A stretch of 64,000 nucleotides of DNA. It comes from Marinobacter sp. CHS3-4 (GTDB lineage Bacteria > Pseudomonadota > Gammaproteobacteria > Pseudomonadales > Oleiphilaceae). The stretch's first letter is position 1. Every line of letters begins with the position of its first letter. Shown here in pieces: positions 6,792 to 53,019 of the stretch. Where the stretch lies: NCBI RefSeq assembly GCF_030053415.1, contig NZ_JASGBJ010000002.1, positions 124,001 through 188,000 of the forward strand. Direction: 5' to 3'. The translations under genes were made by a program, and so were the position numbers. Below the pieces are notes generated by a model, which was given only the letters and a program-made list of their open reading frames with translations, was not told where the DNA came from and ran no database searches.

Positions 6792-7457
6792 TCAGTTGTT
6801 ATTTCTCAGGCGGTTGCGAAGTTGCTCGAGGCGTTTCCGGATCTCTTCCCGGCGGCTGTCGCTGGCGCTGTTACTTTCCGGCCCGCCAAAGCTGGCAGGT
6901 CGAGCTGGTTGCTCGACGTAGCCAGCCTGAGCCGCATTGACGTTTTCCGAGCCTGTGTCATTAACCGCCACATCCATTCCCGAGCGGTCTTCGTCTTCTG
7001 GGAAATACAGGCTTTCCAGTGCGCCTGATCGTTCGATCACAATGCGATCGGGGCGCACGGTTTTTAACGTGGCGTTGCCCGGCAGTTCTTCCCCAACGAT
7101 GTAGGCCTCTGTATTTCTCTTGGCGTCTTCCACAAGAGCGCTTCCGGGAAAATCGCCTGAAGCAGACATGACGCCACGCAGGACCAGTTGCAGGTTGGTC
7201 TCCGGAAGGTTGTCGATATCAGGTTCTTCAACGACTTCAGCCTGATCCTCGTCCCCAAACAGTGATACCTCGCCAAGATTGATATCAGGCGCCTGAGTCG
7301 AGACCGTTCTGGGTTCAGCAGACGTTGTAGCCAAGCCCGCAGCCTGGTTCTGTTCAGCCTGCCAGAATTGATAACCCTGCCAGGAAGTGGACGCCACCAT
7401 GGCCAGTAGGGCGGCGACCGCAAGTAAAAGTGGGAGTCTGGAACTGATCAAGGGCAT
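6792..7457 (-). CDS. gspC: Type II secretion inner-membrane protein GspC (lacks PDZ domain)
   Basis: 221 residues: short cytoplasmic tail, one membrane segment (about 8-26), an acidic linker, the homology region that contacts the secretin (about 85-150, with LQLVLRGVM and AYIVGEEL), then a charged helical C-terminus (about 200-221) in place of a PDZ domain. GspC links the inner-membrane platform to the secretin GspD. Here it is transcribed divergently from gspE-M, with about 150 bases between that must hold both promoters. Only a weak GAGAC precedes the ATG. Confidence 0.85.
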   Translation of the reverse strand: MPLISSRLPLLLAVAALLAMVASTSWQGYQFWQAEQNQAAGLATTSAEPRTVSTQAPDINLGEVSLFGDEDQAEVVEEPDIDNLPETNLQLVLRGVMSASGDFPGSALVEDAKRNTEAYIVGEELPGNATLKTVRPDRIVIERSGALESLYFPEDEDRSGMDVAVNDTGSENVNAAQAGYVEQPARPASFGGPESNSASDSRREEIRKRLEQLRNRLRNNN

Positions 7458-41565: not shown

Positions 41566-42039
41566 TCACAGGGTTTTCTGCAACTTCTGACTGTACCGCC
41601 TGAGCTTCCGAGTGGTTTCAGCCCAGTCGTCTTCTCCCACAAGATCCGTAAACTCCTTGTGAGCCTCTTCCCATTTAATCAAAGCCTCAGAATAGATTTC
41701 TTCACCCTCAGCCGTAAGTGACAGCCCAAGCGACCGTTTGTTGCCGGTGGGCTTGGTCTGCAGCAAGCCTTTCGATATCAGTTTTTCGACCGTACGCTGG
41801 AGCGATGTACGCTCCATGCCAAGCAGCTCCGCCAGCTCGTTGATCGAGTTTGGCGGGTAGAGTTTGATCGCATTCAGAATCGAAAATTGAGTAATGCGAA
41901 GCCCGGTTTCTGCCAGCTTGTTGTTGTAATGGCGGGTGACCAGCCTGGAAAAAACCCGCGAGTAAAGCGCCGCACATGTTTTCCCGATATCCAGAGGGGA
42001 GATCAGATCTGCATTCAGTGCATCCGACATAAAATTCAT
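41566..42039 (-). CDS. MarR-family transcriptional regulator
   Basis: 157 residues with a central winged helix-turn-helix (about 60-100: SINELAELLGMERTSLQRTVEKL, then KPTGNKRSLGLSLT as wing). A palindrome, GTGTATATACAC, lies only 12 bases before its ATG, so autorepression is likely. The same palindrome stands before the divergent hydrolase and again before the transporter operon. MarR proteins typically release DNA on binding phenolic or lipophilic ligands. Ligand unknown. AAAGAGG precedes the ATG. Confidence 0.9.
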   Translation of the reverse strand: MNFMSDALNADLISPLDIGKTCAALYSRVFSRLVTRHYNNKLAETGLRITQFSILNAIKLYPPNSINELAELLGMERTSLQRTVEKLISKGLLQTKPTGNKRSLGLSLTAEGEEIYSEALIKWEEAHKEFTDLVGEDDWAETTRKLRRYSQKLQKTL

Positions 42040-42048
42040 GGCCTCTTT

Positions 42049-42064
42049 AGGTGTATATACACTT
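42049..42064. promoter_or_regulatory. MarR operator 1 (upstream of marR)
   Basis: Contains GTGTATATACAC with right arm ACACTT (AGGTGTATATACACTT). It ends ten bases before the marR ATG, the place for autorepression. Confidence 0.75.
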
Positions 42065-42135: not shown

Positions 42136-42163
42136 TTGCCTTTTTACTTGAAGTGTATATACA
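42136..42163 (+). promoter_or_regulatory. Promoter of the alpha/beta-hydrolase gene, overlapped by operator 2
   Basis: TTGCCT (42136-42141) and TATACA (42158-42163) are 16 bases apart. The -10 box lies inside the MarR palindrome, so a bound repressor would block RNA polymerase. Confidence 0.55.
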
Positions 42164-42166
42164 CTT
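42151..42166. promoter_or_regulatory. MarR operator 2 (upstream of the hydrolase)
   Basis: AAGTGTATATACACTT is a perfect 16-base palindrome. It is the best copy of the three and lies about 55 bases before the hydrolase start. Confidence 0.8.
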
Positions 42167-42221: not shown

Positions 42222-43067
42222 GTGATGACATTCTCAATGAAGCTGTTCAGATTCTCGTTCGGCACATACAGTCGGGCGCTGCCCGCCAAAGCTGCCCAAA
42301 AAGCGGTTGGTTTGATGACAAGCCCCCGCATCAGTGAAGAAAAGCGGAACGCTGTCAGGGCGCAGTTTAACTACAGCACGGCGCTGAAGCGGGGCGGGAC
42401 GCTGTCTGTTTACGGGCAGGGGTCGAAAAGCATCTTGCTGCTGCACGGCTGGTCAGGTTGGGTTGGGCAGTTTTCGGATCTGCTGAACCAGCTCGACCCT
42501 GCTGAGTACACCATCCTTGCGGTCAACCCGATGGGGCACGGCGATTCCTACGCTAATGAGTCTCACCCAGGGCGTTTTATTGAGGCTGTTCTCGATACCT
42601 ATGAGTTCATTGGAAAAAACATTGATGTAGCCATCGGTCACTCCCTCGGATCAGCCGCGCTGGTATACGTACAGGCGGTCAAGCAATGCTTTAATCGCCT
42701 TGCCCTGGTTTCCGGGCCTGCCTCCATCGAAGGAGTTCTCAACCGCTTCGCTTCGTTTTTGGATCTGGGCGAAAGCAGTAGGGACATCTTCATCCGAAAG
42801 ATGGAGGGCAAGGTCGGTCTGACCATCGACCAACTAGACCTGGTTAAGCTTGCCCCTTCGATCAAGCAACCGGTTCTGCTGTTTCACGATCGCGATGACA
42901 GAGAGATTCCAGCAAGCGATTCTCACGAGCTGGATAAAGCGTTTCCAAGAAGCCGTCTCGTCGAAACTCGGGAAAACGGTCATAACCGGATCCTGAAAGA
43001 TGACATTGTCATCACCGAAATTCTGGAATTCCTCGGCCCCGTTCAAGAGGTGCGGAAAGCGTCCTGA
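42222..43067 (+). CDS. Alpha/beta-fold hydrolase
   Basis: 281 residues, GTG start at 42222 or the next codon ATG at 42225; GGAGG at 42211-42215 serves either. Fold elements: LLLHGWSGW (oxyanion), nucleophile elbow GHSLGS (Ser141), acid in HDRDDREIP, and catalytic His in ENGHNRIL. Substrate unknown, perhaps an ester or lipid given the locus. It is transcribed alone, since a terminator follows, and is controlled by MarR operator 2. Confidence 0.85.
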   Translation: MMTFSMKLFRFSFGTYSRALPAKAAQKAVGLMTSPRISEEKRNAVRAQFNYSTALKRGGTLSVYGQGSKSILLLHGWSGWVGQFSDLLNQLDPAEYTILAVNPMGHGDSYANESHPGRFIEAVLDTYEFIGKNIDVAIGHSLGSAALVYVQAVKQCFNRLALVSGPASIEGVLNRFASFLDLGESSRDIFIRKMEGKVGLTIDQLDLVKLAPSIKQPVLLFHDRDDREIPASDSHELDKAFPRSRLVETRENGHNRILKDDIVITEILEFLGPVQEVRKAS

Positions 43068-43088
43068 ATTTTGATTAGGTAATCGGTG

Positions 43089-43111
43089 TGGCGTATCGAC
43101 GCCATTTTTTT
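43089..43111 (+). terminator. Intrinsic terminator after the hydrolase gene
   Basis: TGGCGT (43089-43094), loop ATCG, ACGCCA (43099-43104), then seven T (43105-43111). It separates the hydrolase from the transporter operon. Confidence 0.85.
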
Positions 43112-43121
43112 AAAGCTTTAT

Positions 43122-43136
43122 AGTGTATATACACTT
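43122..43136. promoter_or_regulatory. MarR operator 3 (upstream of the RND-LolA fusion)
   Basis: AGTGTATATACACTT lies 11 bases before the ATG of the transporter and next to its GGGAGGAG ribosome-binding site. Being so close, a bound repressor would block the start of transcription or elongation. Confidence 0.78.
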
Positions 43137-43147
43137 AGGGAGGAGCA

Positions 43148-46100
43148 ATGGCTCAGGAAATTTCCACGCATGGGGAACGGCACACGCGTGCTTATGGCTT
43201 CTTCTTGCGCGTAATCCAGTTGCGCTGGCTAACACTTATTACGGCGCTGTTTATGGTGGTCGGCCTCGGAAGTCAGCTCGGAACGCTGAAAAAGAATACC
43301 CAGGCGGATGCATTTATCGATGAAAACGAGCCTGCACTGGTGTACCGGAAAGCTGTCGAGCGCATTTTTAACCTTAAGGACCCCCTTGTGCTTGCTGTCG
43401 CCAACAGCGGCGAGAAGGGCATCTACAACCGGGAAAGCCTTGAACTGGTGCGCTGGCTGACCAATGCCCTGGCCTCTGTTGAAAATATTGATCCTCAGGG
43501 GATTACGAGCCTCGCCACGGAAAGCAATATTGAGGGCGATACGTTTGGCATGGAGGTTCGAGAATTCCTTGATGGCCCCCTGAGCGACGCGCACATCGCC
43601 TGGATAAAAAACGGCATCAGACATTTCCCCCTCTATGAGGGCAGTCTGGTTGCTGCAGACGGCTCAATGACGCTTGTTATCGCCGAACTGTTGGACCAAG
43701 AGCAGGCAGAAGCTACCTATCAGGCCGTCACTACCTTAATAGAACAGGCACCCACTGGGTCGAACGACGTTCATGTAGCAGGAGAGGGTGCCGTAGTCGG
43801 GTTTTTATCAGAGTACATCGACCGAGACGCCAAGAGACTGAATCCTCTTGCGGCACTCATCATCACTGCTGTTCTGGTCGTTGCGTTTTTTTCCTTACGA
43901 GCTGCTTTGATCCCCAACTTGATTGTGCTGGGGACCGTTGCTGTGACACTTGGCGCGATGGCCTCCAGCGGCACTGAGTTTTTCGTCATCACCAATGGAC
44001 TCATTGTTTGCATGATTGGCATTGCCGTGGCGGACTCCATTCATATTTTTTCCGAGTATTACGAAACGCAGGCAGCCGATCCTTCCTTGCAGCGCGCCGA
44101 TGCGATTGCGATTTCGATGGCCAGAATCTGGCGTCCCGTCACGCTGACGACGCTAACCACGGCAGCGGGTTTCCTTGCGCTTTACCCCACAAACGACATG
44201 CCGCCCATGCAATTCTTTGGAGTGTTTGGCGCATTTGCCGTGTTTGTCGCCGGAATTCTCAGTTTGTTCGTCACGCCCTCACTGCTTTCCTTCGTCAAAC
44301 TGAAGCCCAGTCGTGCTTTCAAGCATCAGAGTAATCAGCGTCAGAGCCGTGGAATCTTGAAGGTCCTGTCCCATGTCGCGCTGGAGCATCCCAGGAAGGT
44401 TCTGGGTGGCGGAATGTTGGTAGCCGCAATTTCCTTGGTTGGCGCGACAAAGGTCATTGTGAATGAGGAACGGATTGAAAATTTCCAGCCATATGAAGCG
44501 ATTTACGTGGCTGACAAGGCCATCAATCGGGCTATGGACGGTACTTATTTCCTGGATGTGGTGATTGAAACGCCTGAAGCTGAAGGAATATATGACCCTG
44601 GCGTTCTTTCAAAAATCAATGAGCTACAAACATTCCTCGAACAACAAACTGAAGTACATGGCACGACGTCCATCGTTGATTACATCAAGCAGATGCACAA
44701 AGCCGTCAATGAAGACGACGCCCGGTTCTATTCCTTGCCGGACGACAAGAACCTGATTGCCCAATTGTTTCTTCTTTATACTGCTTCTGGTGATCCAACC
44801 GATTTCGAGGAGCGGGTGGATTCTCAGCGCCAGACTGCTCTTGTTAGGGCCAGCCTGAAAGAAGGTTCTTATCTGCTGTCTCAATCCCTGGTTCCGAAAC
44901 TTGAGCGCTATCTGCAATCCCAGTTTAACGGTGAAGTCACGGCGCAGATCAGTGGTCGAATCAACGTAGACTATCACTGGATTGGCGGTATTGCCGAAAC
45001 CCATCTGAACAGCGTGATCGTCTCTTTTGTGGCCGTATTTTTGATGGCGGCACTGCTTTTCCGATCCATCGTCGGCGCCTTGATGGCTGGCATACCCGTC
45101 GGTCTTTCAATCCTGGTGATTTACGGTGTAATGGGACTGAAGGGAATCTGGCTGGGCGTCGGCACATCCATGTTCGCCGCTATCGCCATCGGCCTGAGTG
45201 TCGATTTCGCCATCCACACCATTGAGCGCCTCAAACAACTCTCGCCCCAGAGTACTGACGCGTCGATGAAACAGCAGATCGCCGGTCTGTTTATGTCCAC
45301 TGGCAGGGCTCTCTGGTTCAATCTTCTGGCGGTTGCTTTGGGCTTTGGCGTGTTGATGACCAGCAAGGTCCCGCCACTGATCAATTTTGGAGCTCTGGTG
45401 GCACTGGCCGTATCGATCGCATTCCTCGCCAGTTTGCTGGTGCTTCCTGCAATCGTTTACATCTTCAAACCGCGATTTATATTCAATCCAAATGGCAGTT
45501 TCTGGAAAACCAGCCTCATCCTTGTAGCAATCCTTCTCGTAGGGACGCTCGCCAAAACGGCCGTTGCGTCAGAGGAAGCGCCTGAGGTTGGACAGATCAT
45601 CGAGCAAATGAATACTCGGCCGGAGGGGACTTCGGTTCAGCGAGATATGAAGATCACGCTCACGGATAGTCGCGGGAGCGTTCGCGAAGAGCAAACTCGC
45701 GCCTTTCGTCGCTACTTTGGCGAGACCAAGAAAACCGTCATCTTTTACACAAAGCCGGGCACGGTCGCGGGCACCGCATTTTTGACCTGGGATTATGCAG
45801 AGTCACAGAGGGACGATGACCAGTGGCTCTACCTCCCCGCACTACGGAAAGTACGCCGCATCTCGGCTTCCGACCGTGGGGATTACTTCCTCGGCACGGA
45901 CTTTACGTATGAGGAGATCAAAAAGGAGAGCAAGATCGCTGCGGAGGACTATCGCTTCTCCCTTCTGGGTGAAGCGCAGGTCGACGGCCATCACACCTGG
46001 AAAGTGGAGGCCACACCGGTTTCCGCGGAAGTCAGCAATGCTCTGGGTTATGGAAAGGTGGTGCTGTGGATCGATTCGACAGTTTGGATCCCCAGAAAGA

Positions 46101-46309
46101 ACGAGTACTGGGACGTCAACGGGAATTTCCTGAAGACCGTCTACGCCCGAAACATCGAAAACATTGATGGCATCTGGGCGGTAAGCGAACTTGAAGCGGT
46201 GAACCAGAAAACGGGTCACAGCACCCGCATCCAATTCGAGAACACGGATTACGGAGCTGAAGTACCTGCTCGCTTGTTCGAACAACATGCGTTGAAGCGG
46301 GGGTATTGA
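43148..46309 (+). CDS. MMPL/RND-family exporter fused to a LolA-like lipoprotein-sorting domain
   Basis: 1053 residues. Residues 1 to ~785 are a HpnN/MMPL-type transporter: two halves with a large periplasmic loop and about six membrane helices each, including AVADSIHIF and GLSVDFAIH in the repeated helix 4 region. Residues ~785-807 form a hydrophobic stretch ending KTAVA that looks like a retained signal peptide. Residues 808-1053 match the LolA-like outer-membrane lipoprotein-sorting family: WLYLPALRKVRRIS, GTDFTYEEIKKES, NGNFLKTVYARNI. In most relatives, as I recall, these are separate proteins. It probably exports a hydrophobic substrate across the inner membrane and hands it to the periplasmic domain. 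It is the first gene of the operon. Confidence 0.88.
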   Translation: MAQEISTHGERHTRAYGFFLRVIQLRWLTLITALFMVVGLGSQLGTLKKNTQADAFIDENEPALVYRKAVERIFNLKDPLVLAVANSGEKGIYNRESLELVRWLTNALASVENIDPQGITSLATESNIEGDTFGMEVREFLDGPLSDAHIAWIKNGIRHFPLYEGSLVAADGSMTLVIAELLDQEQAEATYQAVTTLIEQAPTGSNDVHVAGEGAVVGFLSEYIDRDAKRLNPLAALIITAVLVVAFFSLRAALIPNLIVLGTVAVTLGAMASSGTEFFVITNGLIVCMIGIAVADSIHIFSEYYETQAADPSLQRADAIAISMARIWRPVTLTTLTTAAGFLALYPTNDMPPMQFFGVFGAFAVFVAGILSLFVTPSLLSFVKLKPSRAFKHQSNQRQSRGILKVLSHVALEHPRKVLGGGMLVAAISLVGATKVIVNEERIENFQPYEAIYVADKAINRAMDGTYFLDVVIETPEAEGIYDPGVLSKINELQTFLEQQTEVHGTTSIVDYIKQMHKAVNEDDARFYSLPDDKNLIAQLFLLYTASGDPTDFEERVDSQRQTALVRASLKEGSYLLSQSLVPKLERYLQSQFNGEVTAQISGRINVDYHWIGGIAETHLNSVIVSFVAVFLMAALLFRSIVGALMAGIPVGLSILVIYGVMGLKGIWLGVGTSMFAAIAIGLSVDFAIHTIERLKQLSPQSTDASMKQQIAGLFMSTGRALWFNLLAVALGFGVLMTSKVPPLINFGALVALAVSIAFLASLLVLPAIVYIFKPRFIFNPNGSFWKTSLILVAILLVGTLAKTAVASEEAPEVGQIIEQMNTRPEGTSVQRDMKITLTDSRGSVREEQTRAFRRYFGETKKTVIFYTKPGTVAGTAFLTWDYAESQRDDDQWLYLPALRKVRRISASDRGDYFLGTDFTYEEIKKESKIAAEDYRFSLLGEAQVDGHHTWKVEATPVSAEVSNALGYGKVVLWIDSTVWIPRKNEYWDVNGNFLKTVYARNIENIDGIWAVSELEAVNQKTGHSTRIQFENTDYGAEVPARLFEQHALKRGY

Positions 46310-46310
46310 A

Positions 46311-47573
46311 ATGAAACGCTTCACTCAAGTTATCGCCCTCGTAAATTTGATTGGTATCGGTCCGTTCGCTAGCGCGATGGATCTGGAGCATGCGTCTCTT
46401 GTGAGCTTCGAGAGTGCCTATACTCATGAATCTGGCACCTGGCAGAAACAGGAACTGATCTGGCGGCCAGAGTGGACTGCCCGGTTTAACTCGGGTGCCC
46501 GTCTCACACTGTTGGGAGAAGCACGCATGGATGCAGAGGATAATCTTGATCCAGGCCAGCCACGGCAGCCCTTTAGGGCAGGGCTCACTCGTAAGAACTT
46601 CCCCGATGACCGTATCGACCTGGAGCTCAGAGAACTCTATCTGGATCATTACCTGGCGGACACCTATCTCCGAGTGGGTAAACAGCAGATTGTCTGGGGC
46701 CAGGCAGATGGCTTGAGAGTGCTGGATGTGATCAACCCATTGAGCTACCGCGAGTTCATCTTGCCCGACATCGAGCATCGCAGAATCCCTCTGTGGTCTG
46801 CGCTGGCGGAAATTCCAGTCGAGGAATGGACGGCGCAAATTGTCTGGATTCCCGACGCCACGGTCACCGAAAGCCCGCTGCCGGGAGCATCCTATTCCGT
46901 CATTCCAGACCCTTTTGGCAAGGGCAGGTTAACGGTGGATCGCCCGGAATCACTTGAGCAGAGCGATGTTGGTTTCAGGCTATCGAGCTTTCAGAAGGGA
47001 TGGGATCTGACGCTGAATTATCTGTACCACACCATTGATGATCCGCTGATCCGTTTCGATTCCGCAGAGCGAAGGGTCCTCGCAAGCTACAACCGTTCAC
47101 ACCTCATTGGAGCCACTGCCTCAAAACCCTTCGGCAGTATGACGTTGCGCTCTGAAATCGGGGTCGAGACCGAAAAACGATTTTTCGATACCGCCTCAGG
47201 GAATGTCATTGAGTCTGAGGTTGCATCTTATGTCCTTGGCCTGGATTTCAGTGGCTTCGCCGACTGGTTTATCAGCGGCCAGCTGTTTCAAACCCACCGT
47301 TTCAACCACCTGAGCGGCACCGAACGCTCCAGTGAAATGGTGACATTGCTGTTACGTCGGGATGCTTTTAACAACGCGCTTCAGCTGGAGGCGTTGAGCA
47401 TCTATGACGTAGACGTTAAGGATTCATTGATACAGCTGGAAGCGGAATACACCGCTGCAACCAACGTGGTCATCCGGGCGGGCTCTGACCTCTTCTTTGG
47501 AGAGCGAAGCGGCACTTTTGGCCAGTTCCGGGATGAAAGCCGGATTACAGCCGGCTTCACCCTGAGTTTTTAA
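46311..47573 (+). CDS. DUF1302-like outer-membrane beta-barrel protein
   Basis: 420 residues with a signal peptide (about 1-22) and alternating beta-strand pattern ending in TAGFTLSF with terminal Phe. The motif LRVGKQQIVWGQADGLRVLDVINPLSYREF is typical of DUF1302 barrels, which often accompany MMPL transporters and LolA-like proteins. It starts one base after the fusion's stop codon, so coupled expression is likely. It is the best candidate for the outer-membrane end of this export system. Confidence 0.85.
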   Translation: MKRFTQVIALVNLIGIGPFASAMDLEHASLVSFESAYTHESGTWQKQELIWRPEWTARFNSGARLTLLGEARMDAEDNLDPGQPRQPFRAGLTRKNFPDDRIDLELRELYLDHYLADTYLRVGKQQIVWGQADGLRVLDVINPLSYREFILPDIEHRRIPLWSALAEIPVEEWTAQIVWIPDATVTESPLPGASYSVIPDPFGKGRLTVDRPESLEQSDVGFRLSSFQKGWDLTLNYLYHTIDDPLIRFDSAERRVLASYNRSHLIGATASKPFGSMTLRSEIGVETEKRFFDTASGNVIESEVASYVLGLDFSGFADWFISGQLFQTHRFNHLSGTERSSEMVTLLLRRDAFNNALQLEALSIYDVDVKDSLIQLEAEYTAATNVVIRAGSDLFFGERSGTFGQFRDESRITAGFTLSF

Positions 47574-47604
47574 CGAATAACATTCTTAACACAGGAGATT
47601 AATA

Positions 47605-48033
47605 ATGTTAGATAAAGCACTGATCACATTTGGGATAGTTCTTTACGCGGTTGTCGTTCCTTACCTGGAAATAAACGATACCCACGTCTTCAATTCTGCC
47701 TGGGTCGCTCATGCAAAATTGCATGAGGTGTGGCAGTTGATCACGAACTCATCGCTTGGAGCCGTTGCTCTGTGGTTGACCTGGTTTACTGCCGACGGAA
47801 GAGGCAAGGCAAGCCTTATCGCCTTACTGGTAACCGGGGGCTTCCTCGCCGCGTTTGCCATGCAGGATCTTTATGGAGGATCCATGGTTCACCCAGATGG
47901 CACCGAAAAAACAGCCTTTGGCATCAACGTTGGTGTTCTGGGTTTTGGCTGGGTATTTCTTAGCTCCCTGTTTACGTTGGCGAGGGCAGCAAAAGACGCT
48001 TCCGCAAAGGCACAATCAGGAGTCTACCAATGA
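47605..48033 (+). CDS. Small four-helix membrane protein, unknown
   Basis: 142 residues with four predicted membrane segments (about 5-22, 44-62, 70-88, 105-125). No motif recognised. AGGAG lies upstream of the ATG and the stop overlaps the MAPEG start (ATGA). Operon position suggests a role in the same membrane process. Confidence 0.65.
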   Translation: MLDKALITFGIVLYAVVVPYLEINDTHVFNSAWVAHAKLHEVWQLITNSSLGAVALWLTWFTADGRGKASLIALLVTGGFLAAFAMQDLYGGSMVHPDGTEKTAFGINVGVLGFGWVFLSSLFTLARAAKDASAKAQSGVYQ

Positions 48034-48449
48034 GCAACCAGCTGATTCTTTACCCGGTGCTGGCCCATATGTTTCTGGTATTTGGTCTGTATATCCTTCT
48101 GGGCAAACGAAAGTCTGCCGCTCGACGCAGCAAAACCGTCGACTTGAAGAAAGCAGCTCTGGATACGAATGCATGGCCTGGCGACGTTATTCAAGTGTCC
48201 AACTGCATCACTAACCAGTTTCAAACACCGGTCATTTTCTATGTGCTTGCGATGATTCTTTTAACTCAGGAGTTCACCAACGTTTATACCCTTGGGCTTG
48301 CCTGGGTATTCGTCCTTGCGCGTTACACTCACGCCTATGTGCACGTAGGCAGTAATTATGTGCCGATGCGATTACGATTCTTCTTGATCGCAACGCTCTC
48401 ACTCTTAATCCTGACCGGGATGGTGATGGTGCTTCTTCTGATGCAATGA
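48030..48449 (+). CDS. MAPEG-family membrane protein
   Basis: 139 residues, four membrane helices, with the MAPEG-like features QVSNCITNQFQTPVIFYVLAM and ARYTHAYVHVGSNYVPMR. MAPEG proteins include glutathione transferases and eicosanoid-metabolising enzymes, and bacterial members are mostly uncharacterised. Its start overlaps the preceding stop by four bases. A lipid- or xenobiotic-modifying role would fit the locus but is inference. Confidence 0.82.
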   Translation: MSNQLILYPVLAHMFLVFGLYILLGKRKSAARRSKTVDLKKAALDTNAWPGDVIQVSNCITNQFQTPVIFYVLAMILLTQEFTNVYTLGLAWVFVLARYTHAYVHVGSNYVPMRLRFFLIATLSLLILTGMVMVLLLMQ

Positions 48450-48543
48450 ACTTTTCATCAATCCAAACGCAAACGAAGAACCCAAATTTATCGAGATGCC
48501 ATCACAGTGATAGGCGCGACAGAAAAGACCGGAGATACGGAAT

Positions 48544-48984
48544 ATGCAAATGAATGTGATTGCGCTTGTAGTCGGCACCATCATTGCTGCGATAGTTATC
48601 GGGAAGCTGGGACGCGCTCGCTCTGCTAACAGCATCAAACTTTACGCAGTTTTCCTGGCAACATTTCCTGTCTATTACTTCGTTTTCGCAGTTTGGGCAG
48701 GGGATTTTGATGCACTCTTTAAAGAAATACTGGTGAGTCTCGGATTTTTATCCCTTGCCATCATTGCCCACAAGTCAAAAAGCCTTGCCAGTCTTATTGT
48801 GCTCGCCGTCGGATACATAGGGCATGCCATCTATGATGTGGCTCATGATGAACTATTCATTAACTCCGGTACGCCCAACTGGTGGCCGGAGTTCTGCGGC
48901 GCTGTCGACGTCATTATTGGGGCGTACTTGCTGTACATCGTGCACGTGACACTGCATGGGCGGGGAAAATCGCGAGAGGGATAA
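48544..48984 (+). CDS. DUF6010-like membrane protein
   Basis: 146 residues, four predicted helices, with the conserved-looking HAIYDVAHDELFINSGTPNW and WPEFCGAVDVIIGAYL. Family function is unknown. GGAGATACGG precedes the ATG. It lies 94 bases after the MAPEG gene and is probably the last gene of the operon or its own unit. Confidence 0.65.
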   Translation: MQMNVIALVVGTIIAAIVIGKLGRARSANSIKLYAVFLATFPVYYFVFAVWAGDFDALFKEILVSLGFLSLAIIAHKSKSLASLIVLAVGYIGHAIYDVAHDELFINSGTPNWWPEFCGAVDVIIGAYLLYIVHVTLHGRGKSREG

Positions 48985-49031: not shown

Positions 49032-49862
49032 CTAACCAATCGTGGTTGTGCTCAGTTTCTTCCATTCTCTGGGAGTCAGGCCGGTATTTTTTTTGAACGC
49101 ACGAGCAAATGCCGATGGATCCTCATAGCCAACTTCGAGGCCTATGAGGGACATTGGCAGATCTTTCTTGATCCGTTTTTTTGCCGCTGCAATCCTTGCA
49201 TTTTGCACATATTCACCGGGGCTCATTCCCAGTAGATTCTTAAAATTCTGGATAAAACTGGAACGGGACATGGCCACCACTTCCGCCAATTTATCGACCG
49301 TTAGATCCTGACTAAGATTAGCGTCGATAAAATTGATGACCTTACTCATCTGGCGATCTGCCAGCGCTGCCAGCATTCCTTTGTTCGAATTGCCGCCGGA
49401 GACAATATGCCTTAATACATTCACAAAAATGAGCTCCACGAGTCGATTCATGACCGCATCTCGACCTTCGTGGTTCGTTTCCGCTTCAGTAAAGAGAACC
49501 TCTACAAAAGCGCCCAATCCCGGCACGGAGTCTAAGGGTAGGGTAACGGTGGCCGGCAGGGCCTCTAAAACTGGGTGTCGTTCCCCGATCTGAAATTTAA
49601 TTGAAGCACAGACCATCTCAGCGCCACTGCGATCTGCACCAAAGAGCCGGTGGGGCTGGGGCTTTACCGAAAAAATCAGAGTTGGTTCACTAAGCGTGCT
49701 TTTTTCGCCATTTGCACCAGTGATTTCCAGCACCCCCGACCGGAGCACATGAATGTAGCCGGTTCCTTCATCTTCAAACGACGCAAGTCCGCAGAGCTGC
49801 CCTCGGAAAAACACCCCTGCGTTCACATTCAATTGTTCGAGTATGAAAGATAGCCTGTCCAT
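49032..49862 (-). CDS. AraC-family regulator with cupin_6-like sensor domain
   Basis: 276 residues. The N-terminal half resembles a cupin ligand-binding domain (LRSGVLEITGANGEKSTLSEPTLIFSVKPQPHRLFGAD). The C-terminal half is an AraC double helix-turn-helix (about 175-275: LSQDLTVDKLAEVVAMSRSSF, VGYEDPSAFARAFKKNTGLTPREWK). Lies eight bases after the DUF1348 gene on the same strand, so the pair is likely an operon. Effector unknown. Confidence 0.9.
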   Translation of the reverse strand: MDRLSFILEQLNVNAGVFFRGQLCGLASFEDEGTGYIHVLRSGVLEITGANGEKSTLSEPTLIFSVKPQPHRLFGADRSGAEMVCASIKFQIGERHPVLEALPATVTLPLDSVPGLGAFVEVLFTEAETNHEGRDAVMNRLVELIFVNVLRHIVSGGNSNKGMLAALADRQMSKVINFIDANLSQDLTVDKLAEVVAMSRSSFIQNFKNLLGMSPGEYVQNARIAAAKKRIKKDLPMSLIGLEVGYEDPSAFARAFKKNTGLTPREWKKLSTTTIG

Positions 49863-49870
49863 AATAAGTA

Positions 49871-50341
49871 TCAGATTCCCAAGTCACTTAGACCAGGATG
49901 ATCATCCGGTCTTCTGCCAAGAGACCAACGAAACAGCCTGTCTGATTCCTTGATCGGACTGTCATTGATAGACGCAAACCGGTTTTTCATCAGACCGTTC
50001 GCGTCAAATTCCCAGTTTTCGTTGCCATAGGATCGAAACCAGTTCCCGCTGTCATCGTGCCATTCGTAAGCATACCTTACAGCGATCCGGTCGTCTGAAA
50101 ATGCCCATAACTCTTTGATCAGGCGGTAATCCAGCTCACGATTCCACTTTCGGGTTAAAAATTCCTCTACCTCTGTACGGCCATTTGCGAATTCTGCTCG
50201 ATTTCTCCAGCGCGTGTCCTCAGTGTAAGCAAGCTTAACTTTGGCTGGATCTCTGCTGTTCCATCCATCCTCCGCAAGACGAACTTTTTTTATAGCAGCC
50301 TCGCGGTCAAAGGGCGGAATTGGCGGGCGTTCGTTGCTCAT
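49871..50341 (-). CDS. DUF1348 (NTF2-like) protein
   Basis: 156 residues from the ATG at 50341, preferred over the adjacent ATG at 50344 because GGAG is then seven bases away. [12 protein letters not shown]-like and [18 protein letters not shown] segments and [19 protein letters not shown] match DUF1348 in the NTF2-like fold, often annotated near reductases. Function unknown. It is divergent from the tetR gene, whose operators lie between them. Confidence 0.85.
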
Positions 50342-50372
50342 CATTGATCTCCATTGAAAGCAAAATAAAAAC

Positions 50373-50388
50373 TAGACCGGTTGGTCTA
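50373..50388. promoter_or_regulatory. TetR-type operator, copy 1
   Basis: TAGACCGGTTGGTCTA is a near-perfect 16-base palindrome. It lies 25 bases (centre to centre) from copy 2. Confidence 0.75.
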
Positions 50389-50397
50389 TTTTGATTA

Positions 50398-50413
50398 TAG
50401 ACAGATCTGTCTA
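50398..50413. promoter_or_regulatory. TetR-type operator, copy 2
   Basis: TAGACAGATCTGTCTA is a perfect palindrome sharing the TAGAC...GTCTA half sites with copy 1. Both lie between the DUF1348 and tetR genes, so both promoters are likely controlled. Confidence 0.8.
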
Positions 50414-50452
50414 TATCTAGCAACATAGGCCAGTCAAAGATGGGGGGAAGAA

Positions 50453-51022
50453 ATGGGACGACGGCAGCATTTGATCGACACGGCATTGAAACTGTTTTAC
50501 GAGCAGGGGATTCATGCCACCGGTATCAATCAGGTCCTGGATGTAGCTCAGGTCGCAAAGCAGACGCTTTATAATCACTTTGAGAGCAAAGACAGCCTTG
50601 TTGAAGCGGCAGTTGTGCATCGCGACTTTGTTTTCTATGGCTGGCTGGCTGATCGATTGAGCCAGTGCGCAGCCGGCAAGGAAGCCCTACTGGAGGTATT
50701 CGATGCCATTCACGACTGGTTTAACAATAAAGTTCCCATGCTAAACCGCTTTTGCGGATGCTTCTTCATTAACACTTGTGGCGAGTTCAGTGACCCGGAA
50801 CATGAGGTACACAAGCGTTGCGCTGAGCACAAAGCACGGGTGTTTGAGCTCTTGCTCGGCCACGCCAGGAAAGTGACCCGCTCCGAGGCCGAGGCCAAAA
50901 ATCTGGCCTATGCACTCTCGTTATTGAAGGAAGGGGCCACGATCAAAGCACATGTTGAGGGCGATCTCGAAGCCGCTCTGTCAGCAAAGCAGATCGCCGC
51001 CAGAATGATCTCATCACACTGA
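50453..51022 (+). CDS. TetR-family transcriptional regulator
   Basis: 189 residues with an N-terminal TetR HTH (about 1-50: GIHATGINQVLDVAQVAKQTLYNHF) and a helical ligand domain with LNRFCGCFFINTCGEF, a TetR_C_16/YcdC-like pattern. GGGGGAAG precedes the ATG. Two palindromes ahead of it suggest it represses itself and the divergent DUF1348-AraC pair. Effector unknown. Confidence 0.9.
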   Translation: MGRRQHLIDTALKLFYEQGIHATGINQVLDVAQVAKQTLYNHFESKDSLVEAAVVHRDFVFYGWLADRLSQCAAGKEALLEVFDAIHDWFNNKVPMLNRFCGCFFINTCGEFSDPEHEVHKRCAEHKARVFELLLGHARKVTRSEAEAKNLAYALSLLKEGATIKAHVEGDLEAALSAKQIAARMISSH

Positions 51023-51075
51023 TTCAGGCTGCGTTGAGACCAACGGATCTTAGCGATACCGTGTAAGAGAAACGT

Positions 51076-51294
51076 TTATTCCTGAGCGTTTTTGCGAGGC
51101 CCCCCGGCCGACCACTTACCTAGCAAGAAAACGAAAAATGGCACGCAGTAGGTCAGTACAGCTGGTAACCAACGAATTTCATCGTGTCCCAACAGGGCAT
51201 CCAGTTGATTAATGACCAATAGAACGGTACCAACCAGCAGAGCTACTTTTATTGCTTGCCGGGTGTGACGTTTAAACAATACGAGCAGTGGCAT
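51076..51294 (-). CDS. NrtS-like small membrane protein
   Basis: 72 residues from the ATG at 51294, with GAGGAGG six bases upstream. Two membrane helices and the pattern AIKVALLVGTVLLVINQLDALLG...WLPAVLTYCVPF resemble the NrtS nitrate/nitrite transporter family. The start lies inside the end of the upstream oxidoreductase gene (23-base overlap). Nitrate transport is inferred from family resemblance; no nitrate reductase gene is near. Confidence 0.6.
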   Translation of the reverse strand: MPLLVLFKRHTRQAIKVALLVGTVLLVINQLDALLGHDEIRWLPAVLTYCVPFFVFLLGKWSAGGPRKNAQE

Positions 51295-52702
51295 AAACAT
51301 CCTCCTCATTCTGCGCTGTATCCAGCTGCGCGGCCGCATCTCTGAAGGCTGTGCGCACGCCCTCTTCAACCACCGGGTGGTAAAACGGCATCGCTAGAAT
51401 TTCACCCACTGTGAGAGACTGTTGGACCGCCCAGGACAAAAGATGACCTATGTGCTCGGCTGCAGGGCCGAACATTTCGGCACCCAAAAAGATACCAGTG
51501 CGTTTCTCCACATAGACCTTAAGCATGCCTTGATTTTTTGCCATGACGCGGCTGCGACCCTGATTATGAAAGCCCACCTTGCCCGTAACAAAACTCTGCT
51601 CTTTCAGTTGCTGGGCTCGTTTTCCTACGCTAGAAATTTGTGGGTCGGAGAAGACTACACCCAGACCGGCGCGGCGATGGCCGACCTCAACCAAGGGAAA
51701 AACGCCCGCGTTACGACCCGCTATGCGCCCCTCATCTGAAGCTTCATGCAGGAGGGGGATTTCATTGTTAACATCACCCGCAATGAAAACATGGGGCAGG
51801 CTGGTCTGAAGGGTGTGCCGGTCAAATACAGGCACGCCACGACCATCTAGAACCAATCCCGTTTTCTCTAAATCGAGCTTGTCGGTATTCGGAACTCGTC
51901 CGGTCGCCGCAAGCACGTAGTCCACATCTTCCTTTCGCTGGACGCCAGTTGCATCGCGGTAGGCGAGCCTGACCCCGGAAGGGGTCAACTCCGTTCCGAG
52001 GACCTCAGCATTCAATCTCAGGTCAAATTCGGACTGGAATGTGGCGGCCGCGATACCGCGGATCTCTGGATCGCCTATACCGCCTATCGAATCACCGCGC
52101 GCCAGCATCGTAACGTTTACACCCAGGCGGCTCAGGGCCTGTCCCAGTTCAAGCCCAATCACGCCGGCACCAACAACGAGCACGGATTTCGGGAGTTGCT
52201 CCAGCTCGAAAATATCATCATTAATGACAACTCGATTGCCAGCACCCTCGAGTACTTGGGGAATAGAAGGCCTCGACCCGGTTGCGATGACAATCCGTTT
52301 GGCAATGATTTCGAGACCGTTATCGATCAATAGCCTGTGAGCGTCCAAAAACCGCGCGTACCCACGAACTTTGTGCTTATCATCGAACCCATCGACGTCG
52401 TTTTCGACGAATCCAACGAACCGATCACGCTCAGCCTTTACCCGCGCCATAACAGCTGCGCCATTGACCTCCACGGAAGGCACATTCACTCCAAAAATTT
52501 CTGCATGGCCGGCAGCATGGGCTGCTTCAGCTGCCGCTATAAGGAGTTTGCTCGGCATGCAGCCCACACGCGCACAGGTTGTGCCGTAGGGACCGCCTTC
52601 GATAAGCGCAATACTGTCGGTATGTTTTCGAGCCTCTCGATAGGCGCTCATCCCCGCCGTACCGGCACCAATAATCGCAACATCAACGTTCCGCTTGAGC
52701 AT
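51272..52702 (-). CDS. Pyridine nucleotide-disulfide oxidoreductase (dihydrolipoyl dehydrogenase-like)
   Basis: 476 residues from the ATG at 52702 with GGAGAAAG upstream. FAD motif GAGTAG, redox Cys43-x4-Cys48 (TTCARVGCMPSK), second Rossmann GAGVIGLELGQAL, and C-terminal FYHPVVEEG with the base histidine. It is closest in pattern to orphan Lpd/mercuric-reductase-type proteins rather than a complex-bound E3. The glutaredoxin-like gene just upstream suggests a thiol redox role. Confidence 0.85.
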   Translation of the reverse strand: MLKRNVDVAIIGAGTAGMSAYREARKHTDSIALIEGGPYGTTCARVGCMPSKLLIAAAEAAHAAGHAEIFGVNVPSVEVNGAAVMARVKAERDRFVGFVENDVDGFDDKHKVRGYARFLDAHRLLIDNGLEIIAKRIVIATGSRPSIPQVLEGAGNRVVINDDIFELEQLPKSVLVVGAGVIGLELGQALSRLGVNVTMLARGDSIGGIGDPEIRGIAAATFQSEFDLRLNAEVLGTELTPSGVRLAYRDATGVQRKEDVDYVLAATGRVPNTDKLDLEKTGLVLDGRGVPVFDRHTLQTSLPHVFIAGDVNNEIPLLHEASDEGRIAGRNAGVFPLVEVGHRRAGLGVVFSDPQISSVGKRAQQLKEQSFVTGKVGFHNQGRSRVMAKNQGMLKVYVEKRTGIFLGAEMFGPAAEHIGHLLSWAVQQSLTVGEILAMPFYHPVVEEGVRTAFRDAAAQLDTAQNEEDVYATARIV

Positions 52703-52752
52703 TTCTTTCTCCAATCTTTTCCGTTGCACCATTCGCACTGTTATTGAGCTTC

Positions 52753-53019
52753 TCAAGCTGCTCGGCGTCTTAGGTATTGAATGATTGCTTGAGACTCATA
52801 GAGCCAATGCGACTGACCATTAGAGTCAATTCTGAGGCAGGGGACCTGGGCTTTACCTCCGCCTTTGACCAGCTCTTCTCGATACGCCGAGTTACCTGCG
52901 ATATTGCGCAGCTCTACTTCGGTGTCGATAGAGTTCAGCGCGCCCAAGGTGACCTGGCAGAAAGGGCAACCGGGCTGATGGTAGAGAGTCAAAGAAGTGA
53001 TCTTAGGATTGAATGACAT
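52753..53019 (-). CDS. Glutaredoxin/GST-N-like thiol protein
   Basis: 88 residues from the ATG at 53019, GGAGG upstream. CPFC (Cys18, Cys21) and the ending LYESQAIIQYLRRR give a glutaredoxin or glutathione-transferase N-domain. It has the dithiol active site of glutaredoxins. Cytoplasmic. It precedes the disulfide oxidoreductase by about 50 bases on the same strand. Confidence 0.85.
   Translation of the reverse strand: MSFNPKITSLTLYHQPGCPFCQVTLGALNSIDTEVELRNIAGNSAYREELVKGGGKAQVPCLRIDSNGQSHWLYESQAIIQYLRRRAA

Follow-up and report, generated by a model that had tools for sequence, protein, structure and literature searches.

In the gene neighbourhoods compared here, the core of the export system proposed for this locus is two genes, an RND-LolA fusion and a DUF1302-type outer-membrane beta-barrel, and is smaller than the six-gene set originally proposed. 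Judged from sequence, this core belongs to a real, conserved, MarR-linked envelope unit, for which export is the most likely role. The locus lies in the 64,000-nucleotide stretch of Marinobacter sp. CHS3-4 DNA that was analysed (the window), and all seven reading frames, MarR through the DUF6010-like gene, are located where the original prediction placed them. The features are as follows.

41566-42039, minus strand: MarR-family regulator (Pfam MarR_2, E 2e-10, above the gathering score), divergent from its neighbours
42049-42064, no strand: predicted operator O1, AGGTGTATATACACTT, 10 bp ahead of the MarR start
42151-42166, no strand: predicted operator O2, AAGTGTATATACACTT (a perfect palindrome), ahead of the hydrolase
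42222-43067, plus strand: alpha/beta hydrolase (Pfam, E 4e-13), serine nucleophile motif GHSLG
43088-43105, plus strand: terminator-like hairpin 3' of the hydrolase, consensus match only
43121-43136, no strand: predicted operator O3, TAGTGTATATACACTT, 12 bp ahead of the pump start
43148-46309, plus strand: RND-LolA fusion, 1053 aa, internal stop absent
43148-45472, plus strand: residues 1-775 of the fusion, the RND/MMPL pump part (Pfam MMPL)
45497-45568, plus strand: signal-peptide-like segment inside the fusion (residues 784-807), with a predicted cut at AVA|SEE (A807/S808)
45569-46309, plus strand: LolA-like periplasmic carrier part, residues 808-1053 (PF17131, E 6e-57)
46311-47573, plus strand: DUF1302-type outer-membrane beta-barrel (DUF1302, E 8e-8; ~18 strands)
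47605-48033, plus strand: four-helix membrane protein (DUF6640 match, below cut-off)
48030-48449, plus strand: MAPEG protein (Pfam MAPEG, E 2e-16), passenger
48544-48984, plus strand: DUF6010-like membrane protein (family match E 0.09, below cut-off), passenger

The families assigned to MarR, the hydrolase, the fusion (MMPL plus LolA_like), the barrel (DUF1302) and the MAPEG protein were confirmed, and the DUF6010-like label is weak because its match does not reach the cut-off. The DUF6640 label of the four-helix protein is likewise weak.

The nearest named relatives of the pump are those of M. salinexigens, M. alexandrii and M. maritimus (72-74% identity). Its two MMPL stretches (PF03176) score 108.5 bits (E 4e-31), above the gathering score, and the HAE3 model TIGR00921 scores 194.9 bits against a cut-off of 351.9 (E 2e-57), which makes the pump related to the curated model and outside it. 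Asp296 and Asp686, on two central helices, are invariant in the homologue alignment, and an invariant central-helix Asp suits proton-driven transport as known for RND pumps. In a structure model of the fusion that is poor to moderate (pTM 0.53), the fold of the pump half resembles those of MmpL, HpnN and NPC1. The carrier half scores 192.6 bits against LolA_like (PF17131; gathering score 30), with a partial secondary match to DUF1329 (E 5e-14), and is similar to P. gingivalis LolA3 (9tp6), with a TM-score of 0.86 by target length and 34% identity.

The linker that follows the last pump helix is highly variable across 44 homologues, yet 93% of these have Ala at position -1 and 86% have a small residue at position -3. 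An [AVSTGC]xA site lies past the hydrophobic stretch in 43/44 fused homologues, with Lys/Arg upstream in 41/44, and the features of a signal-peptidase-I substrate are all present (a charged start, a hydrophobic core and small residues at -3/-1). When [AVST]xA was counted near other membrane helices, the motif alone was not rare, and thus the argument for a cut site rests on column conservation and spacing in a variable linker. The length of the charge-free run did not discriminate between a signal peptide and a true helix, the ranges of the two overlapping. A conserved ATG start for the carrier inside the fusion was considered and rejected, because only 10/44 homologues have a Met at the core or a short way upstream. 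Split forms also exist, in which pump and carrier are adjacent genes and the carrier, secreted on its own, has a normal signal peptide at its start; split and fused forms interleave in the tree, where well-supported branches force at least two changes. The simplest reading is that the linker is probably a retained, still-cut signal peptide that frees a soluble carrier, since a cut-type site conserved in 43 of the 44 fusions suggests cleavage into a pump and a free carrier. Alternatively, the signal-like segment could stay uncut as a 13th membrane helix, tethering the carrier. Use of the cut site, as the reading of a retained signal peptide has it, would make this fusion an uncommon example of a membrane pump that is processed so as to set its own carrier free.

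The barrel scores 32.1 bits against DUF1302 (PF06980; gathering score 23.2), and this match is partial (143-360 of 541). It carries the conserved motif GKQQxVWGxADG...NPxxxREF, and a profile alignment to a classical DUF1302 protein covers the GKQ/GRQ...WG...NP motif region alone, at low probability. The partial score and the motif-only alignment point to a divergent member of DUF1302. The beta-barrel model, of moderate confidence (pLDDT 73), has the alginate exporter AlgE as its best fold match, and a search of the barrel sequence against solved structures returned no match.

The loci compared consisted of 20 named loci and 40 more that were collected by searching Marinobacter and the order to which it belongs; a phylum-wide search gave further, more distant matches, which were left out of the locus set. 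The barrel gene lies 3' of the pump on the same strand in 53/55 pump loci, the loci and homologues counted being related sequences and not independent, and the pump-barrel pair is kept across Gamma- and Alphaproteobacteria. The proposal that pump, periplasmic carrier and outer-membrane barrel belong together is thereby borne out as a conserved unit. The neighbours of the pump in the 55 loci are MarR (at least 34), the hydrolase (11) and the four-helix gene (3); among these loci neither another pump neighbour of comparable frequency nor a recurrent biosynthetic neighbour that would name the cargo was found. Within Marinobacter the pump is patchy, occurring in 12/124 genomes, with nine close copies, and all of the close copies (9/9) are in genomes carrying MarR (P = 8e-10).

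The original prediction had joined six genes into one export pathway, with the MAPEG protein and the hydrolase modifying the cargo, and had named rare co-occurrence of these genes in other genomes as the finding that would speak against it. Co-occurrence holds for the core (53/55) and not for the MAPEG and DUF6010-like tail. The gaps between the six genes are short, all lie on one strand, and the four-helix and MAPEG pair recurs once in Marinobacter (L115, in genome G102); however, that recurring pair has no pump with it, and the MAPEG and DUF6010-like genes stand beside the pump in no relative, and we regard a six-gene pathway as very improbable. Without a pump, the G102 pair suggests that these two genes may form a small unit of their own. 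A MAPEG gene adjoins the pump in no other locus among the related loci, and its association with close pump copies across Marinobacter was not seen (P = 0.09). The DUF6010-like gene is present in 2/124 genomes and is unlinked to the pump in the other one. Both were dropped as candidates for the core, since no related locus has either of them next to the pump. The four-helix gene was downgraded as a core candidate by co-occurrence: it occurs in 13/124 Marinobacter genomes, only 5 of them with the pump. Its place in the set survives in a few close Marinobacter relatives, where it is linked to the pump (it is truncated in G049), but its other copies lie in another setting, among stress genes, and it is at best an optional local associate, weak and limited to Marinobacter.

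A palindrome, AAGTGTATATACACTT, was exposed by comparison of the intergenic DNA of relatives. It occurs three times in the window, where shuffled sequence would give 0.01 matches. When a 14-base version was sought in the 3.72-Mb genome, at most one mismatch being allowed, only O1, O2 and O3 were found, and allowing up to two mismatches in the 14-base core added a single two-mismatch site. The core TGYATATACA is found ahead of the pump in 32/38 loci with MarR nearby, against 2/14 without (P = 6e-6), and occurs 36 times in the other 930 kb; in one of the two MarR-less loci with the core (L051), MarR is about 14 kb off. A second clade has a shifted variant of the palindrome, ACATGCATATACATG. The conserved operator near MarR, the hydrolase and the pump agrees with the predicted control by MarR, whose binding we infer from sequence. 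Autoregulation is similarly inferred from O1, near the MarR start. The terminator-like hairpin between the hydrolase and the pump suggests that these are probably separate transcription units, and the arrangement looks like a small regulon, in which two units stand alongside the regulator, rather than a single operon.

Among 34 distinct pump-linked MarR homologues, Cys22, Arg32, Tyr38, Gln51, Arg82, Gly112 and Trp123 are invariant. The nearest solved structure is 4fx0 (Rv0880 of M. tuberculosis), in which a Cys is aligned to Cys22, a residue thus common to the two proteins; Rv0880 has no known tie to the present module. An OhrR profile gave a weak match to MarR (E 0.0075), and in a hand alignment we take Cys22 to lie about two residues ahead of the reactive-Cys position of OhrR. 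A thiol switch at this MarR is an attractive possibility.

The hydrolase gene is present in 17/124 Marinobacter genomes, among them 15/16 of those having MarR, even pump-less ones (P = 3e-16). At seven loci it lies away from any pump and the operator is kept close upstream, with 1-2 mismatches. Genomes G056 and G108 are the only hydrolase genomes without MarR, and the same two lack the operator at the hydrolase. Because of its co-occurrence with MarR and the operator kept away from the pump, the hydrolase is, on sequence evidence, a genuine member of the regulon. Its inclusion in the original set was apt in the sense that it shares a regulon with MarR and the pump; the wider module family manages without it.

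Taken as a whole, the module is probably dedicated to the export, on induction by a ligand, of a hydrophobic compound that is toxic or bound for the cell surface. MarR would bind AAGTGTATATACACTT, as operator conservation suggests, and keep its own gene, the hydrolase gene and the pump unit repressed until it is released by a compound that is hydrophobic or reacts with thiols and that may be sensed at Cys22 or close by. Fold and family suggest that the proton-driven RND pump would then draw the compound out of the inner membrane and pass it on to the LolA-like carrier, which would shield it through the periplasm as far as the DUF1302-type barrel for release. Pump and carrier would be translated as one chain, from which signal peptidase I would probably free the carrier by cutting at AVA|SEE, and the hydrolase would probably degrade the same ester-like compound.

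Traffic in the opposite direction, in which the barrel would admit long alkanes or hydrophobic food and the pump and carrier would handle it inward or assemble the barrel, seems unlikely to us. Alkane users are well known within Marinobacter (AupA/AupB), but RND/MMPL pumps of known direction export, an alkane-degradation gene recurs nowhere beside the module in the 55 loci, and MarR with a hydrolase is a better match for detoxification. In favour of uptake is the pair TOL_3187 and TOL_3188 of Thalassolituus oleivorans, for which such a role has been proposed and which were both induced with n-C28 as the growth substrate (PMC6304351).

We find it slightly less likely still that the pump and carrier would place one of the cell's own lipids or lipoproteins in the outer membrane, in the manner of HpnN or Lol, with the barrel as receptor. 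The folds are like those of HpnN, MmpL and LolA3, and acyl chains are bound by the LolA family. A patchy distribution (12 of the 124 Marinobacter genomes) and a private MarR switch are nevertheless unlike housekeeping, a lipid-synthesis gene is linked in none of the 55 loci, and P. gingivalis LolA3 interacted only very weakly with LolB (PMC13103446).

We hold it to be possible rather than probable that pump and carrier are a polyprotein which signal peptidase I cuts within the envelope, to give equal amounts of the two, and that this two-gene route across the envelope, with a thiol-sensing MarR and its operator, represents a class of exporters for hydrophobic compounds that is common in marine Alpha- and Gammaproteobacteria and has gone unrecognised. 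As a compact and probably inducible unit with a predicted operator, the pump, carrier and barrel should be transferable to a laboratory strain for testing. The operator would also serve as a direct reporter handle for the natural inducer and hence for the cargo.

The architecture has published relatives, and the original view that this was not a nameable system was too strong, given AmeABCD and TOL_3187/3188. The HpnN and MmpL lipid transporters have fold and family in common with the pump half, but have neither a fused LolA domain nor a partner DUF1302 barrel. LolA3 (9tp6, PMC13103446) has the same fold as the carrier; it is a stand-alone protein that is not fused to a pump and is without an assigned function. 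A search of the literature on RND-LolA fusions found the Thalassolituus proteomics paper alone and no account of them as a system. TOL_3187, likened to the fusion here by its published domain content, has two MMPL domains and a LolA-like domain, with the gene of the porin-like TOL_3188 directly downstream, as here; in the passages describing the pair, TOL_3187 was 42-fold up on the alkane n-C28 and TOL_3188 was seen only there, alkane uptake and porin delivery are proposed, and MarR, an operator and a cleavage site do not figure (PMC6304351). Judged by domain content, the two-gene unit has thus been seen already in proteomics.

The other relative is AmeABCD of Castellaniella defragrans, in which an HAE3-type RND pump, a LolA-superfamily protein and a DUF1302 barrel are encoded together, as here, and whose deletion led to lower monoterpene tolerance and higher dye accumulation, which supports a role in exporting apolar compounds such as monoterpenes or in protecting against them (PMC6394551). 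The source genome also holds a classical Ame-like four-gene set (L128) at C2:188.8-198.1 kb, just past the window edge, with an esterase and then a wax ester synthase gene 3' of it. AmeABCD is made of four separate genes with a separate DUF1329 protein, whereas here a PF17131 carrier is fused to the pump and no separate DUF1329 gene was found in the pump-barrel unit. The AmeABCD barrel is about 600 aa against 420 aa here, and its BNR/YCF48 protein, AmeC, is absent from the present module: none was found in the region and none is recurrent beside the pump in the 55 loci. The module is further set apart from AmeABCD by a MarR with its own operator in control, and as a whole it would operate as a compact AmeABCD.

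The four-helix gene (DUF6640-like) and the MAPEG gene were also found adjoining, with no pump beside them, in a Marinobacter genome, and it is possible that the pair constitutes a two-gene membrane unit. Beside the pump of another genome, the four-helix gene ends prematurely after about 50 residues, a truncation which suggests that it is dispensable there. Within Marinobacter, a variable set of redox and stress genes repeatedly surrounds the hydrolase, with the pump present or absent. These genes encode DUF1348, TetR, a pyridine nucleotide-disulphide oxidoreductase, a glutaredoxin-like protein, LysR/AraC regulators, and an LpxR-like outer-membrane protein.

L115:9168-10062, adjoining four-helix and MAPEG genes (G102)
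L050, about 7008-7157, truncated four-helix gene (G049)
window 49032-52756, also L105-L109, L112 and L114, variable redox/stress neighbourhood

Unusual arrangements of pump and barrel were observed at two loci. One carries a second, distant RND gene 3' of the barrel; at the other, an internal pump stretch (residues 459-603) runs on into the barrel sequence, which may reflect faulty assembly or a copy in decay.

L069:4426-6864, second RND gene (G188)
L028:9001-10659, pump and barrel joined in one open frame

Beyond the class, small-genome relatives (family f78, phylum search) have at most three distant pump matches each, and in several cases a separate LolA-like gene lies immediately 5' of the pump, whereas in the window it is fused downstream.

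A classical Ame-like cluster, resembling AmeABCD (monoterpene efflux) of Castellaniella defragrans, was found directly past the window end.

G000:C2:188839-198117 (L128:2780-12117), Ame-like cluster

It contains DUF1302, DUF1329, BNR/YCF48, and RND genes, and is followed downstream by an esterase-like hydrolase and then a wax ester synthase/DGAT. Thus, both kinds of system are present in one genome, with a spacing of about 20 kb.
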